From Bdellovibrionota bacterium (GTDB lineage Bacteria > Bdellovibrionota > UBA1018 > CAUJDS01), in the NCBI GenBank assembly GCA_963169695.1, contig CAUJDS010000012.1:1-58887 (forward strand): a DNA stretch of 58,887 nucleotides, read 5' to 3'. The notes beneath the pieces were generated by a model. It did no database searches. It was not told the origin of the DNA and saw only the letters and a program-made list of their open reading frames with translations. This document shows, piece by piece, positions 759 to 27,826 of the stretch. Positions within the stretch are counted from its first letter, which is position 1; each line of letters opens with the position of its first letter. The translations under genes were made by a program, and so were the position numbers.

Positions 759-830
759 CAGCCCCAGCAAGGCGGGTTTGATTCTTGGAAGTTGGCACAG
801 GATGACAGGAAGGATGACGCGGCGAGGGGG
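759..830 (+). repeat. Left terminal inverted repeat of HNH element 1
   Basis: This begins with CAGCCCCAGCAAGGCGGG and matches the reverse complement of 2268-2339 imperfectly over about 70 bp. Shared blocks are AGCAAGGCGGG, GAAGTT, GGATGACAGGA and a run of G near the inner end. The outermost 15 bases from 762 are identical between the two ends. Confidence 0.7.
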
Positions 831-839
831 GGCGTGACT

Positions 840-1268
840 TCGAATAAATACATATCAAATATGTATAATAACGAATCCGTACTAGGAACTGAAAGGTACC
901 CTTTCGTCGTACTGTACGACGAGGGCCTGATACCCGAGAAGTCCGCAGCGGAGCTACTGCGAACAAGATTGGAGCAAAAGAGGGTAAGCTTTTCATTCCG
1001 ATTGTGACTTGGTTGTGATTGCAAAATAAAATGCAGCTGTTTTTTTCCTTGGCGCATTGAAAAGCAGTTTCTTTTTTTACTCTTCGAAAATTGCTCAACC
1101 TTTCTCATAACGATGCTAAGGCTTCCCGCTTTCATTCAGAGATGAGCATGTTCATTTCATGGGGTGGATCTTAATTTTAAGTATGAAACGCATGAGCGGC
1201 TAAAGGAGCGAGAAAAATTGCGCCTTGAAACCCGTGGTAAGTTCCTCCTCGTTGAAAGGAACTCTCCA
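840..1268 (+). other. Conserved leader of HNH element 1, possible structured RNA or control region
   Basis: The 430 bases before the HNH start are strongly similar to the leader of element 3 (about 26885-27285). The part from the palindrome onward also matches element 2 (9648-10009). Conserved stretches include the palindrome at 904-922, GTGACTTGGTTGTGA near 1004 and AACGATGCTAAGGCTTC near 1109. Reading frames through it are interrupted differently in each copy: copy 1 has an in-frame TGA at about 1142 where copy 2 stays open. Conservation is therefore at the nucleotide level. An untranslated RNA or regulatory role is inference. Confidence 0.5.
904..922. promoter_or_regulatory. Perfect 19-bp palindrome in the element 1 leader
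   Basis: TCGTCGTACTGTACGACGA is a perfect 9+1+9 palindrome. The identical sequence stands at 26954-26972 in element 3, and its 13-bp core is at 9648-9660 in element 2. The core also occurs inside the endonuclease genes (1913-1925 and 10654-10666). It may be an operator or the nuclease recognition site; which one cannot be told from sequence. Confidence 0.55.
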
Positions 1269-2216
1269 ATGGCACACTTACTTTGCTCTCTCCATGATCA
1301 AGCCTTGAAACTCTCAAAACAGTACCTTGCCTGCGAGAAAGAACTTTTAGAAATTCTAGTGAAGATTGACGCCAAGAAAATCTATCTTGAACAAGGTTAT
1401 GCGAGCCTGACTGAGTATTCTCAAATGGCACTTGGGCTATCTCGAGATGTCAGTTGGAACCTTGTTACCATTGTTCACAAATCCAAGGCCGTACCAGAGC
1501 TTAAACAAGCAGTGCAAATGGGAGTGCTTCCTCTCAGTAAGGCCCGCCAGATAGCACCCCATTTGACGAAAGAGAATTCTCAGAAGTTCATTGCACTTGC
1601 TCAGGCCATGCCGAGAGAGAAGCTCCAAGAGGCGCTCGCCAAAGAATGCCCTAAGATTCCAAGCATAGAAGAGCGTGCCCGGGTAATCAATGCAACCCAA
1701 GCGGAGCTTTCTTTGTGTTTGCCAAAAGAAGTCATGGAAAGAATCCGCCGAGCCCAAGACCGAGTCTCGGAGTCGCAGAAGAAGTGGGTTGGCCTAGCAG
1801 AGACATTGGAGCAAGTTGTGGAGTTCTACCTTCAACACAAAGACCCAAAAGAAAAAGCTAGGCGCCATGAAGCTCGAAAAAGCAAAGCTCCCGTGTTAGT
1901 AAAACAATCTCGTCGTACAGTACGAGAACTTGACGCGGTCGATAAAGAGCTTGAATGGGATTCAAAATCCTTGCCAATAGCCCAGACCAAGGACCGAGTT
2001 CCAATCCCTGCAGAGATAAAACATGAGGTCGTTAACAAAAACGCTCATCGGTGTACCTATCAAGATCCAAGGACCCAGCTTCGATGTGAGAAGGAAAGGT
2101 TCTTACACTTTCATCACAAGCTTCCAGTGGCAAAAGGTGGAACCAATGCGCTAGAGAATCTCACTTTGCTTTGTAGCGCCCATCATCGATTGGAGCATTA
2201 TCAAAGTAGCGAGTGA
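1269..2216 (+). CDS. HNH endonuclease of element 1
   Basis: This is a 315-residue protein with an all-helical N-terminal region (about 1-180) of the kind found before HNH domains in Bdellovibrio-type genomes. A variable linker follows (about 205-250), then a C-terminal HNH/zinc domain at about 262-311. That domain shows the paired His of FHHKLP, the GGTN turn, the NLTLLC strand and CSAHHR; spaced cysteines fit a structural zinc. I chose ATG 1269 over the GTG at 1164 because the ATG and its AAGGA site are conserved in copy 2, while the upstream codons diverge. The expected activity is sequence-specific DNA cleavage. No RuvC motifs are present, so it is not IscB-like. The gene sits inside terminal inverted repeats, pointing to a selfish or mobile role. 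Confidence 0.8.
   Translation: MAHLLCSLHDQALKLSKQYLACEKELLEILVKIDAKKIYLEQGYASLTEYSQMALGLSRDVSWNLVTIVHKSKAVPELKQAVQMGVLPLSKARQIAPHLTKENSQKFIALAQAMPREKLQEALAKECPKIPSIEERARVINATQAELSLCLPKEVMERIRRAQDRVSESQKKWVGLAETLEQVVEFYLQHKDPKEKARRHEARKSKAPVLVKQSRRTVRELDAVDKELEWDSKSLPIAQTKDRVPIPAEIKHEVVNKNAHRCTYQDPRTQLRCEKERFLHFHHKLPVAKGGTNALENLTLLCSAHHRLEHYQSSE
1913..1925. promoter_or_regulatory. Leader palindrome core repeated inside the HNH gene
   Basis: TCGTACAGTACGA lies in the codons for an Arg-Arg-Thr-Val-Arg run in the variable linker of the endonuclease. The same 13 bases are kept in copy 2 (10654-10666) although the surrounding linker has diverged. That suggests selection on DNA or RNA as well as protein. 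Confidence 0.45.
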
Positions 2217-2267
2217 GATTTTGATGATCGCTGCGCACCTTTACTCATAGGGACCTTTCTGAGGCCG

Positions 2268-2339
2268 CCCCCCTTGCTGGATTCCTATCCTGTCATCCGT
2301 TGCAAACTTCGTAGCTTCAATCCCGCCTTGCTGGGGTTG
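2268..2339 (-). repeat. Right terminal inverted repeat of HNH element 1
   Basis: Reverse-complement partner of 759-830, ending in CCCGCCTTGCTGGGG at 2336. The bases just after the gene (GATTTTGATGATCGCTGCGC, from about 2216) are also conserved after the genes of copies 2 and 3. The bases between this repeat and the next gene (2340-2463) show nothing else I can name. Confidence 0.65.
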
Positions 2340-9473: not shown

Positions 9474-9545
9474 CAACTCCAGCAAGGCGGGTTTGAATCT
9501 CGGAAGTCAGCAATGGATGACAAGAAGGGGCGCAGCGATGGGAGG
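9474..9545 (+). repeat. Left terminal inverted repeat of HNH element 2
   Basis: Matches the reverse complement of 11022-11093 over about 70 bp with few mismatches, and matches the left repeat of element 1. The segment GCGGGTTTGAATCTCG resembles a tRNA T-arm, but no tRNA gene is attached. Confidence 0.65.
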
Positions 9546-9647
9546 CTGAAAGTAGGTACTTTGTTATAAAGCATTCATGCATTTTACAGTTGCTTGTTAG
9601 CCAATCAAAACATTTCCCTTCTTTGTGCGCGCGCGTGAAATGGACCA

Positions 9648-9660
9648 TCGTACTGTACGA
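9648..9660. promoter_or_regulatory. Palindrome core in the element 2 leader
   Basis: TCGTACTGTACGA is a perfect 6+1+6 palindrome at the same place as the longer palindromes of elements 1 and 3. Outer bases are partly lost on the left side. The leader from here to 10009 is the nucleotide-conserved region shared by all three copies. Confidence 0.5.
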
Positions 9661-10009
9661 CGAGAGACTGAAGCCAAAGAAATCCGCAACAGAGCTGATG
9701 CAACCAAAATGGGAGAAAAATAGCATAAGCTGGTTTTTCTGATCGTGACTTGGTTGTGAGGCAAAAATGTAATAAAGATGACTTTTTCCTTGGCGCATTG
9801 AAAGGCAGTTTTATTTTTAACTCATCGACAACTGTCCAACCCTTTTCATAACGATGCTAAGGCTTCCCGCTTTCAATCAGAGCGAAGCATGTTTATTTCA
9901 CGGGGAGGATCTTTATTTTAAGAGCGAAACGCCTGAGAGGCTAAAGCAGCGAGAAAAATCGCGCATTAAAACCCGTGGTAAGTTCCTCCTTGTTGAAAGG
10001 AACTCTCGA

Positions 10010-10969
10010 ATGTCACACGTATTCTGCACACTCCATGATCAAGCCTTAAAACTTTCAAAACAGTACCTAGCTTGTGAGAAGGAACTCTTAGAAGTCCTTG
10101 TGAAGATTGAAGCCAAGAAAGTCTATCTTGCTCAAGGCTATGCTAGCCTGACTGAGTATTCGCAAAAGGCACTTGGGCTATCTCGAGATGTCAGCTGGAA
10201 CCTTGTTACCATTGTTCATAAGTCCAAAGCTGTACCAGAGCTCAAACAAGCGGTGCAAATGGGAATCATTCCTCTCAGTAAAGCTAGACAGATCGCCCCC
10301 CATCTGACGAAAGAGAATTCTCAGAAGTTCATCGCCTTGGCTCAGGCCATGCCAAGAGAGAAACTCCAAGAGGCGCTCGCCAAAGAATGCCCCAAGATTC
10401 CAAGCGTGGAAGAGCGTGCCCGGGTGATCAATGCTACGCAGGCTGAGCTTTCTCTGTGCCTGCCAAAAGAAGTCATGGAGAAACTAAGACGAGCCCAAGA
10501 TCGAGTCTCTGAGTCACAAAAGAAGTGGGTGGGTTTAGCCGAGACCTTGGAGCAAGTCGTAGAGTTCTACCTTCAGCACAAAGACCCAAAAGAAAAAGCC
10601 AAGCGTCATGTAGTTCGAAAAAGCAAAGCTCCCGTGTCGATAAAATGTTCCCGTCGTACAGTACGAGAATCTGACGCAGCTGCTAGAAATCCTGAATTGA
10701 ATCTTAGGTCTATCAATAAGCCTATAGCTAAGATTCAAACAAGAGGCCGAATCCCTATCCCAGCCGGCATCAAACACGACGTGATTATCAAGAATGCACA
10801 TCAGTGCACCTATCAAGACCCTAGGACCCAGCTTCGATGTGAGAAAGAAAGATTCTTACACTTTCATCACAAGTTTCCAGTAGCGATGGGTGGAACCAAT
10901 ACGCTAGAGAATCTTACTTTGCTTTGCAGCGCCCATCATCGATTGGAGCATTATCAAAGTAGCGGGTAG
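10010..10969 (+). CDS. HNH endonuclease of element 2
   Basis: The 319-residue protein is close to the element 1 endonuclease through the helical N-terminal part (about 1-205) and the HNH end (about 266-315, with CTYQDPRTQLRC, FHHKFPVAMGGTN and CSAHHR). The linker between them has diverged in sequence and length. ATG 10010 is preceded by the same AAGGA site as copy 1. An open frame runs upstream to 9854 in this copy only and is interrupted in copy 1, so the longer form is unlikely. Predicted DNA nuclease; the target is unknown. Confidence 0.8.
   Translation: MSHVFCTLHDQALKLSKQYLACEKELLEVLVKIEAKKVYLAQGYASLTEYSQKALGLSRDVSWNLVTIVHKSKAVPELKQAVQMGIIPLSKARQIAPHLTKENSQKFIALAQAMPREKLQEALAKECPKIPSVEERARVINATQAELSLCLPKEVMEKLRRAQDRVSESQKKWVGLAETLEQVVEFYLQHKDPKEKAKRHVVRKSKAPVSIKCSRRTVRESDAAARNPELNLRSINKPIAKIQTRGRIPIPAGIKHDVIIKNAHQCTYQDPRTQLRCEKERFLHFHHKFPVAMGGTNTLENLTLLCSAHHRLEHYQSSG
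10654..10666. promoter_or_regulatory. Palindrome core inside the element 2 HNH gene
   Basis: TCGTACAGTACGA sits at the same linker codons as in element 1 (1913-1925), although residues on either side have changed. Confidence 0.45.
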
Positions 10970-11021
10970 GATTTTGATGATCGCTGCGTACTTCTACTCG
11001 TAGGAGCCTTTCTTAGGCGAC

Positions 11022-11093
11022 CCCCCTCTCGCTGCTCCCCTTCCTGTCATTTCTTGCTAACTTTCCAGATTCAAACCCGCCTTGCTAGGGTTG
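11022..11093 (-). repeat. Right terminal inverted repeat of HNH element 2
   Basis: Inverted partner of 9474-9545. The 117 bases between it and the sufB stop show no strong terminator, so suf transcripts may read into the element antisense to its gene. Confidence 0.65.
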
Positions 11094-26838: not shown

Positions 26839-26953
26839 GGTCTCCGTAATGAAACAACCCAGCCCCAGCAAGGCGGGTTGGCAGCGGCTTCGAGTAATTA
26901 TATTGAATCTATGTACACCAATGGATCTGTACTAGGATTTGAAAGGCATCCTT

Positions 26954-26972
26954 TCGTCGTACTGTACGACGA
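26954..26972. promoter_or_regulatory. Perfect 19-bp palindrome in the element 3 leader
   Basis: Identical in all 19 bases to 904-922 of element 1, although this copy no longer encodes a full endonuclease. Confidence 0.5.
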
Positions 26973-27284
26973 GGGCTTGATACCCGAGAAGCCTGCAGTA
27001 AAGCTAGCTTTTCCAATTGTGACTTAGTTGTGAGTGCAAAATAAAATACAGATGACTTTACTCTTGGCGCCTTGAAAGGCAGTTTCATTTGCTTTTCTTC
27101 GACAACTGTCCAACCTTTCTTATCACGATGCTAAGGCTTCTCGCTTTCATTCAGAGCTGAGAGTGTTCATTTCATGGGGTGGGTCTTTATTTTAAGAGCG
27201 AAACGCATTAGCGTCTAAAGGAGCGATAAAAATCGCACCGAAAAACCCGTGGTAAGTTCCTCCTCGTTGAAAGGAACTCTGCTG

Positions 27285-27721
27285 GAACCTTGTTGCCATT
27301 GTTCATACGCCAATGAATGCCCCAAGATTCCAAGCGTGGAAGAGCGTGCTCGCGTGATCAATGCAACCCAAGCGGAGCTAATTTTTGGAAAAAACAAAGA
27401 TAGTACTTTGGCGCTTTGATTCTTAAAAGTGCAAGAGCAGTCTTAAGAGCGACCGCCTGGATGGCGGTCAAGAGGCTTAAGGAAGAGTGCTGGACTGCTC
27501 ATGCATTTTTAAGAATCAAAGCAATGCGCAAAGTAGTGACTGCCCAGGCACATCAGTGCACCTATCAAGACCCTTGGACCCAATTTCGATGTGACAAAGA
27601 AAGGTTCTTACACATCCATCACAAGCTTCCGGTAGCAAAGGGTGGGACCAATGCCCTAGACAATCTCACCTTGCTTTGCAGTGCCCATCATCGATTGGAG
27701 CACTATCAAAGTAGCGGGTGA
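27285..27721 (+). pseudogene. Remnant of the HNH endonuclease gene
   Basis: Fragments of the N-terminal region are joined by deletions and frame changes (27285-27380). They are followed by foldback DNA and then an intact HNH end (27546-27721, with CTYQDPWTQFRC, IHHKLPVAKGGTN and CSAHHR). A 101-codon frame from TTG 27416 joins foldback sequence to the HNH domain. It could in principle be read as a solo HNH protein, but no ribosome binding site is evident. I treat it as a broken gene. Confidence 0.7.
27402..27538. repeat. Foldback (nested inverted repeat) inside HNH element 3
   Basis: Outer arms 27414-27442 and 27493-27521 match at 27 of 29 bases when inverted, beginning CTTTGATTCTTAAAA. Shorter outer pairs extend to about 27402 and 27538 (ACTTTG...CAAAGT). 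At the centre GACCGCC (27451-27457) and GGCGGTC (27463-27469) form a tight hairpin. The whole could fold into one long stem. It resembles a MITE-like or foldback insertion and has no counterpart in elements 1 and 2. Confidence 0.6.
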
Positions 27722-27826
27722 GATTTTGATGATCGCTGCGCACTTCTATTAGTAGGAGTCACTCTATTGGGGTCGTTGTGAGCAAGTAGTCCGCTAGCGC
27801 ATGATACCTCTATCGGATGCAAATCT

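Follow-up and report, generated by a model that had tools for sequence, protein, structure and literature searches.

The window analysed here is a stretch of 58,887 nucleotides from a Bdellovibrionota bacterium (contig CAUJDS010000012.1 of assembly GCA_963169695.1), and it carries three copies of a repeated element built around a gene encoding an HNH nuclease. Copies 1 and 2 (762–2336 and 9477–11090, both on the forward strand) are intact members of a subfamily termed type 1, and copy 3 (26863–27770, forward strand, right limit approximate) is decayed; the complete units, the decayed copy and their tips, leaders and HNH genes all lie where the original prediction, made from the sequence of the window, had placed them. 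Copy 1 is enclosed by inverted ends of ~70 base pairs (bp), the left one (762–831, forward) beginning with the tip CCCCAGCAAGGCGGG and the right one (2267–2336, reverse) being 0.70 identical to it. Inside the left end follow Zone I (832–903, forward), which is unrelated to the equivalent zone of copy 2, the leader palindrome P (TCGTCGTACTGTACGACGA, 904–922), where the homologous unit starts, a leader conserved among the copies (923–1268, forward), and the HNH nuclease gene (1269–2216, forward), whose open reading frame (ORF) is open from a GTG at 1164. A second P (TCGTACAGTACGA, 1913–1925) lies within the ORF, in a disordered linker ahead of the HNH domain (PF01844, 2085–2201, forward). In copy 2, located between polA and sufB-like genes, the inverted ends (9477–9546, forward; 11021–11090, reverse) enclose Zone II (9547–9647, forward), the leader P (9648–9660) and an HNH gene (10010–10969, forward; ORF open from 9854) with its own internal P (10654–10666), and the HNH genes of copies 1 and 2 are 87% identical. 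Copy 3 adjoins an ABC transporter gene and has a collapsed left inverted end, its tip being fused to sequence close to the inner boundary of the terminal inverted repeat (TIR), yet its leader retains P (26957–26969); gene fragments remain at 27303–27464 and 27527–27715, and no right tip of this copy was found. A hairpin-rich insertion occupies 27380–27550, and its last 42 bp are identical to another decayed copy, C75a (L037). As predicted, the copies lie between host genes, with no recognisable gene interrupted by any of the three in the window. No conserved RNA fold was found in the leaders, where folds were weak and inconsistent.

The HNH protein comprises a ParB/Noc-like helical N-terminus, an RHH-like middle and a C-terminal HNH domain, the last being a clear match to PF01844 with conserved catalytic His/Asn and Cys residues. 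The AlphaFold model has a mean pLDDT of 83.9, with residues 211–240 forming the disordered linker. When searched with Foldseek, HNH matches rank first (best E 0.015), followed by Noc and ParB DNA-binding domains for the N-terminal half (probability 0.94–0.98, TM-score up to 0.65 by target length, E 0.4–0.6). The middle segment looks like a ribbon-helix-helix (RHH) fold (one CopG chain, E 0.05). Among 36 family members, HTH_ParB was matched by four and DUF222 (PF02720) by five (best E 6.6e-5), the window protein not being one of the latter. ParB and Noc bind palindromes via a helix-turn-helix (PMC7383237).

Copies, ends and flanks across genomes

In the 2.79-Mb genome of the window (G000), 39 sites match the tip CCCCAGCAAGGCGGG with at most one mismatch (22 forward, 17 reverse), compared with none for the reversed pattern, as found by the whole-genome search that the original prediction had proposed. 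Within the window, the tip is matched exactly at 762 (+), 2322 (-) and 26863 (+) and with one mismatch at 9477 (CTCCAGC...) and 11076 (CCCTAGC...), and the seven tips found with up to three mismatches exceed the number in every one of 100 shuffles. Nearly all tips belong to an HNH gene or an HNH relic, and the tips are thus not a repeat that is widespread without the gene. Instead of the three copies first proposed, the genome contains about 25 scattered HNH elements, intact and decayed, 0.6–1.7 kb in size and divided into two gene subfamilies, type 1 and type 2; the intact forms carry an HNH gene under selection. A protein search of the genome returned 10 intact genes 83–100% identical to the window copy and several fragments, and the type-2 proteins are 27–28% identical to the window copy. 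No tip was detected in L036 (C60:36387), a truncated and older relative of type 1 that is 74% identical over 117 amino acids. When the part of copy 1 from the left tip to the gene start was used as a DNA query, the inverted ends common to both subfamilies proved to extend over ~70 bp and not over the 15 bases first taken as the repeat, with an identity of 0.64–0.91 between the two ends of one element.

The sequence beyond the tips is itself repeated, with flank modules A, B and D recurring next to tips. Modules A and B were considered as pre-existing targets and rejected, as they are present almost solely beside elements; module D was found alone as well. The tips could not be upheld as true ends of the element either, given the repeated outside flanks and the absence of target duplication. 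A ~60-bp dispersed intergenic repeat, AAAGGTGCACTGCACCTTTGAATCCTTTTTGGCCCGAGGTGCGTCA, adjoins several elements (L029:322–413, L141, L143, L145) with a fixed spacing of 19 bp from GCGTCA to the tip, and it also occurs solitarily. Contigs C51 and C80 finish in the same 141 bases that open C60, suggesting near-identical recent copies collapsed in the assembly. A phage or plasmid origin was rejected because records of phages and plasmids and viral contigs contained no relative, and a defence system because PADLOC gave weak matches to the HNH part only.

The occurrence of the same inverted ends on two very different interiors may point to a transposon, that is, a family resembling miniature inverted-repeat transposable elements (MITEs), in which a transposase from another locus would recognise the ~70-bp ends in trans, with the HNH gene as a passenger. 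The recurring flank modules would agree with such a family, as would compact derivatives without HNH (C19:8888 and C60:150467; a third site, C60:111734, is a decayed tip). However, the target duplication that the original prediction had suggested looking for was absent at the tips of all 12 two-tipped elements checked, and no transposase was present in any element copy read, as the prediction had held for the window, although no separate transposase census was made. Moreover, the HNH gene is under purifying selection, relatives amplify an HNH unit lacking such ends, and homology breaks at P, which is internal to the ends. A transposon would therefore account for the inverted ends but not for P, and we consider it an unlikely explanation.

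The relatives were sought in 58 genomes, G000 included, the others being distant drafts of which the nearest belong to the same order. Family matches were found in 33 of them, with up to 46 in a single genome, and closer alignment of the family matched metagenome-assembled genomes (MAGs) of Oligoflexia and Bacteriovoracaceae. The family is also present in two MAG records of public databases, L205 and L207, whose titles, Nitrosovibrio sp. and Lysobacteraceae, look wrong, the contigs apparently being those of G016 and G004, which both fall in the order of the window genome. The copies form one clade per genome in seven of nine multi-copy sets, so amplification occurred within lineages. They are lineage-specific, occupy unrelated loci rather than always the same ones and are intergenic where checked, and purifying selection acts on the HNH gene in every multi-copy set tested (median dN/dS of 0.12 for type 1, 0.15 for type 2 and 0.14 for G009). 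In relatives, the copies align from 250–500 bases upstream of the gene and end at or near the gene end, and the ~70-bp inverted ends are absent from their amplified HNH units. The inverted-end carrier is therefore local, and the leader and gene form the common core. Of the mobile or homing-type unit first proposed, the dispersal thus stands, supported by per-genome monophyly, unrelated loci and recent collapsed copies. The 15-bp tips, on the other hand, probably do not mark where the mobile core ends, since relatives lack them and homology starts at P.

The palindrome P as boundary and matched pair

A palindrome scan of type-1 elements identified P, TCGTAC[W]GTACGA, at the start of the leader and again within the ORF, in the stretch that separates the DNA-binding domain from HNH, and each intact type-1 copy bears it twice. 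There are 29 P sites genome-wide (reversed control, 0), and only those at C8:21627 and C73:2768 lie outside elements or relics. In the type-1 units of the window genome, homology starts at the internal P and not at the tip: in the 80 bases preceding the leader P, two unrelated groups can be told apart, with an identity of 0.49 between them (0.45 after shuffling), whereas the 330 bases that follow P are 0.76 identical, equally between and within groups. One upstream group, exemplified by Zone II of copy 2, matches the 3' zone of type-2 elements in inverted orientation at up to 94% identity, a match that stops within a few bases of P. The copies of G009 likewise align from P onward, and both in G009 (L170) and in the window genome (C34) leader-side sequence passes at P straight into the sequence otherwise found behind the ORF P. 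In G056, a P lies on either side of the unit, and solitary P sites are mostly found 18–35 bases after a stop codon, several of them between convergent genes; one solitary site in G009 and one in the window genome (C73) are similarly placed. In G009, the CCGG centre of P is also occupied at four places by an insert of 148 bp whose inverted ends measure 32 bp (one in L100, two in L101 and one in L104), as though P were favoured for insertion or breakage.

Other lineages carry palindromes of their own in matched pairs. G009 has CTCGCGCCGGCGCGAG in the leader and ORF at the same two places, G026 has the pair TGTTCACGTGAACA, one G032 copy has the pair CTGTAACGTTACAG, and the pair of G016 is imperfect, whereas in G056 and the Bdellovibrionaceae record L211 the pair encloses the whole gene; in two lineages the second P is thus at or just beyond the gene end rather than inside the ORF. 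Under a matched-pair rule requiring an exact 12-base core, a match to the own leader was found in 15 of 77 units, representing six of 24 lineages with six different palindromes, compared with one of 5346 cross-lineage pairs. Some of the units counted had already revealed the pattern before these statistics were computed, and the number of lineages therefore carries more evidential weight than the number of units. Perfect palindromes are 13-fold denser in the linker (2.9/kb) than elsewhere in the ORF (0.23/kb). The type-1 ORF P has a diversity of 0.014, and 0.036 at third positions inside P, versus 0.28 in the linker on either side; being far less diverse than its flanks, it is therefore kept as DNA, by selection or conversion.

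This conservation at the DNA level, together with the palindrome-binding fold and a spacing of ~0.8–1.1 kb between the two P copies that would permit a loop, could also indicate that P is an operator only, to which the HNH protein or a host regulator binds in leader and ORF for expression control, the units spreading by ordinary duplication or gene conversion. Such an operator would explain binding but not the break of homology at P, and it leaves both the P past the gene end and the collapsed P–P joints unaccounted for. The leaders of G032 (L193–L208) contain a second conserved palindrome, AAAGTGC[GC]CACTTT, ~80–120 bp before the gene and distinct from the variable P, and this sequence is a candidate operator of G032, better suited to that role than P. 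We thus find a purely regulatory P improbable. Alternatively, the P copies may be small mobile palindromes, like Rickettsia palindromic elements (RPEs) or repetitive extragenic palindromic (REP)-like sequences, that invaded leader and linker, the HNH gene being incidental. RPEs do insert in frame in genes (PMC10969869), and G056 and G009 have P outside elements. Yet hardly any P lies outside elements in the window genome, the ORF P of type 1 is conserved far above its flanks, and palindromes recur at the same linker in several lineages with matching leader copies, making an invasion by mobile palindromes very unlikely.

A possible homing-like mode of spread

With moderate confidence, we favour a selfish, homing-like HNH unit whose own protein recognises P, which would be both boundary and target of the unit. 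Its core would consist of P, a leader of ~250–500 nt and a gene for the ParB/Noc-like, RHH-like, HNH protein, and the units were amplified separately in many Bdellovibrionota-type lineages. The N-terminal half of the protein would bind P as a dimer and the HNH domain would cut at or near P, after which rejoining or repair of the broken P ends could attach the unit to another P or to different flanking sequence, P being the joint where the unit meets new sequence. Because P is palindromic, half-sites from any cut P could be joined either way, restoring P; an inserted segment would thereby end up flanked by P on either side, and its loss would leave one P behind. In the window genome, the units ride in intergenic carriers with ~70-bp inverted ends common to the two HNH subfamilies.

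Several points weigh against this homing-like unit. An exact matched pair is lacking in 18 of 24 lineages, including type 2 of the window genome, in the stretches searched, and the element-free P copies of the window genome number only two. Among the genomes compared, the nearest being only of the same order, no clean empty orthologous site was available. A P within the element would expose it to self-cutting, and a protection or a nicking mode would be needed. In several lineages P precedes rather than follows the HNH domain, a placement for which the proposed mechanism does not account. Finally, the Foldseek E-values are weak (0.015 at best, for an HNH match, and 0.4–0.6 for Noc), and that the protein binds P and cuts there, as well as the route by which units move, is what we infer.

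More tentatively, it could be speculated that the unit is self-targeting and transposase-free: the ParB-like and HNH halves would recognise a lineage-specific palindrome carried by the unit and move it by cutting and rejoining at palindrome copies, among them solitary copies at safe positions shortly after genes, with specificity and carried site changing together. If true, this would be a selfish element without a transposase in which protein and site co-vary. Repeated HNH/DUF222-type genes are widespread, and to our knowledge how they spread is unexplained. Lineages with a matched pair each provide two copies of a candidate recognition site of their own, and the pairs therefore offer a direct and cheap test of what HNH/DUF222-type proteins bind and cut.

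Comparison with known systems

REP13E12/DUF222-HNH repeats of Mycobacterium tuberculosis and other Actinobacteria resemble the window family in being multi-copy repeats centred on a single HNH gene that encodes a helical N-terminal domain, and both a C-terminal HNH domain and genome-wide repetition are shared. However, the window protein has no DUF222 match and belongs to another phylum, and we know of no inverted ends or matched palindromes in REP13E12. Sequences of the REP13E12/HNH/DUF222 kind have been counted among repetitive elements (PMC10589994). Free-standing HNH homing endonucleases are likewise small HNH nucleases that are amplified in intergenic positions without a transposase, and the catalytic motif expected of them is intact in the window family; the window element differs in lying outside any intron or intein and in carrying its putative recognition palindrome twice. 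Solitary P sites were seen in G056 and G009 and twice in G000, none of them forming an orthologous pair with and without the element.

MITEs and insertion sequence (IS) elements have in common with the family inverted ends, intergenic placement and decayed forms with internal deletions, but the elements of the family have no target duplication at the tips checked and no related transposase in the copies read, and the intact forms carry a selected HNH gene. The likeness to IscB/OMEGA is confined to the HNH domain, the NCBIfam IscB model being matched below its cut-off and in its HNH part only, and an RNA-guided reading was rejected as Pfam identified no RuvC, Rfam gave no match and the leaders have no conserved fold. 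With ParB/Noc, the window protein appears to share the fold of its N-terminal half according to Foldseek, yet it has no recognised ParB CTPase domain and this half is fused to the RHH-like segment and HNH. The palindrome TGTTCACGTGAACA of G026 (L063), in turn, closely resembles parS.
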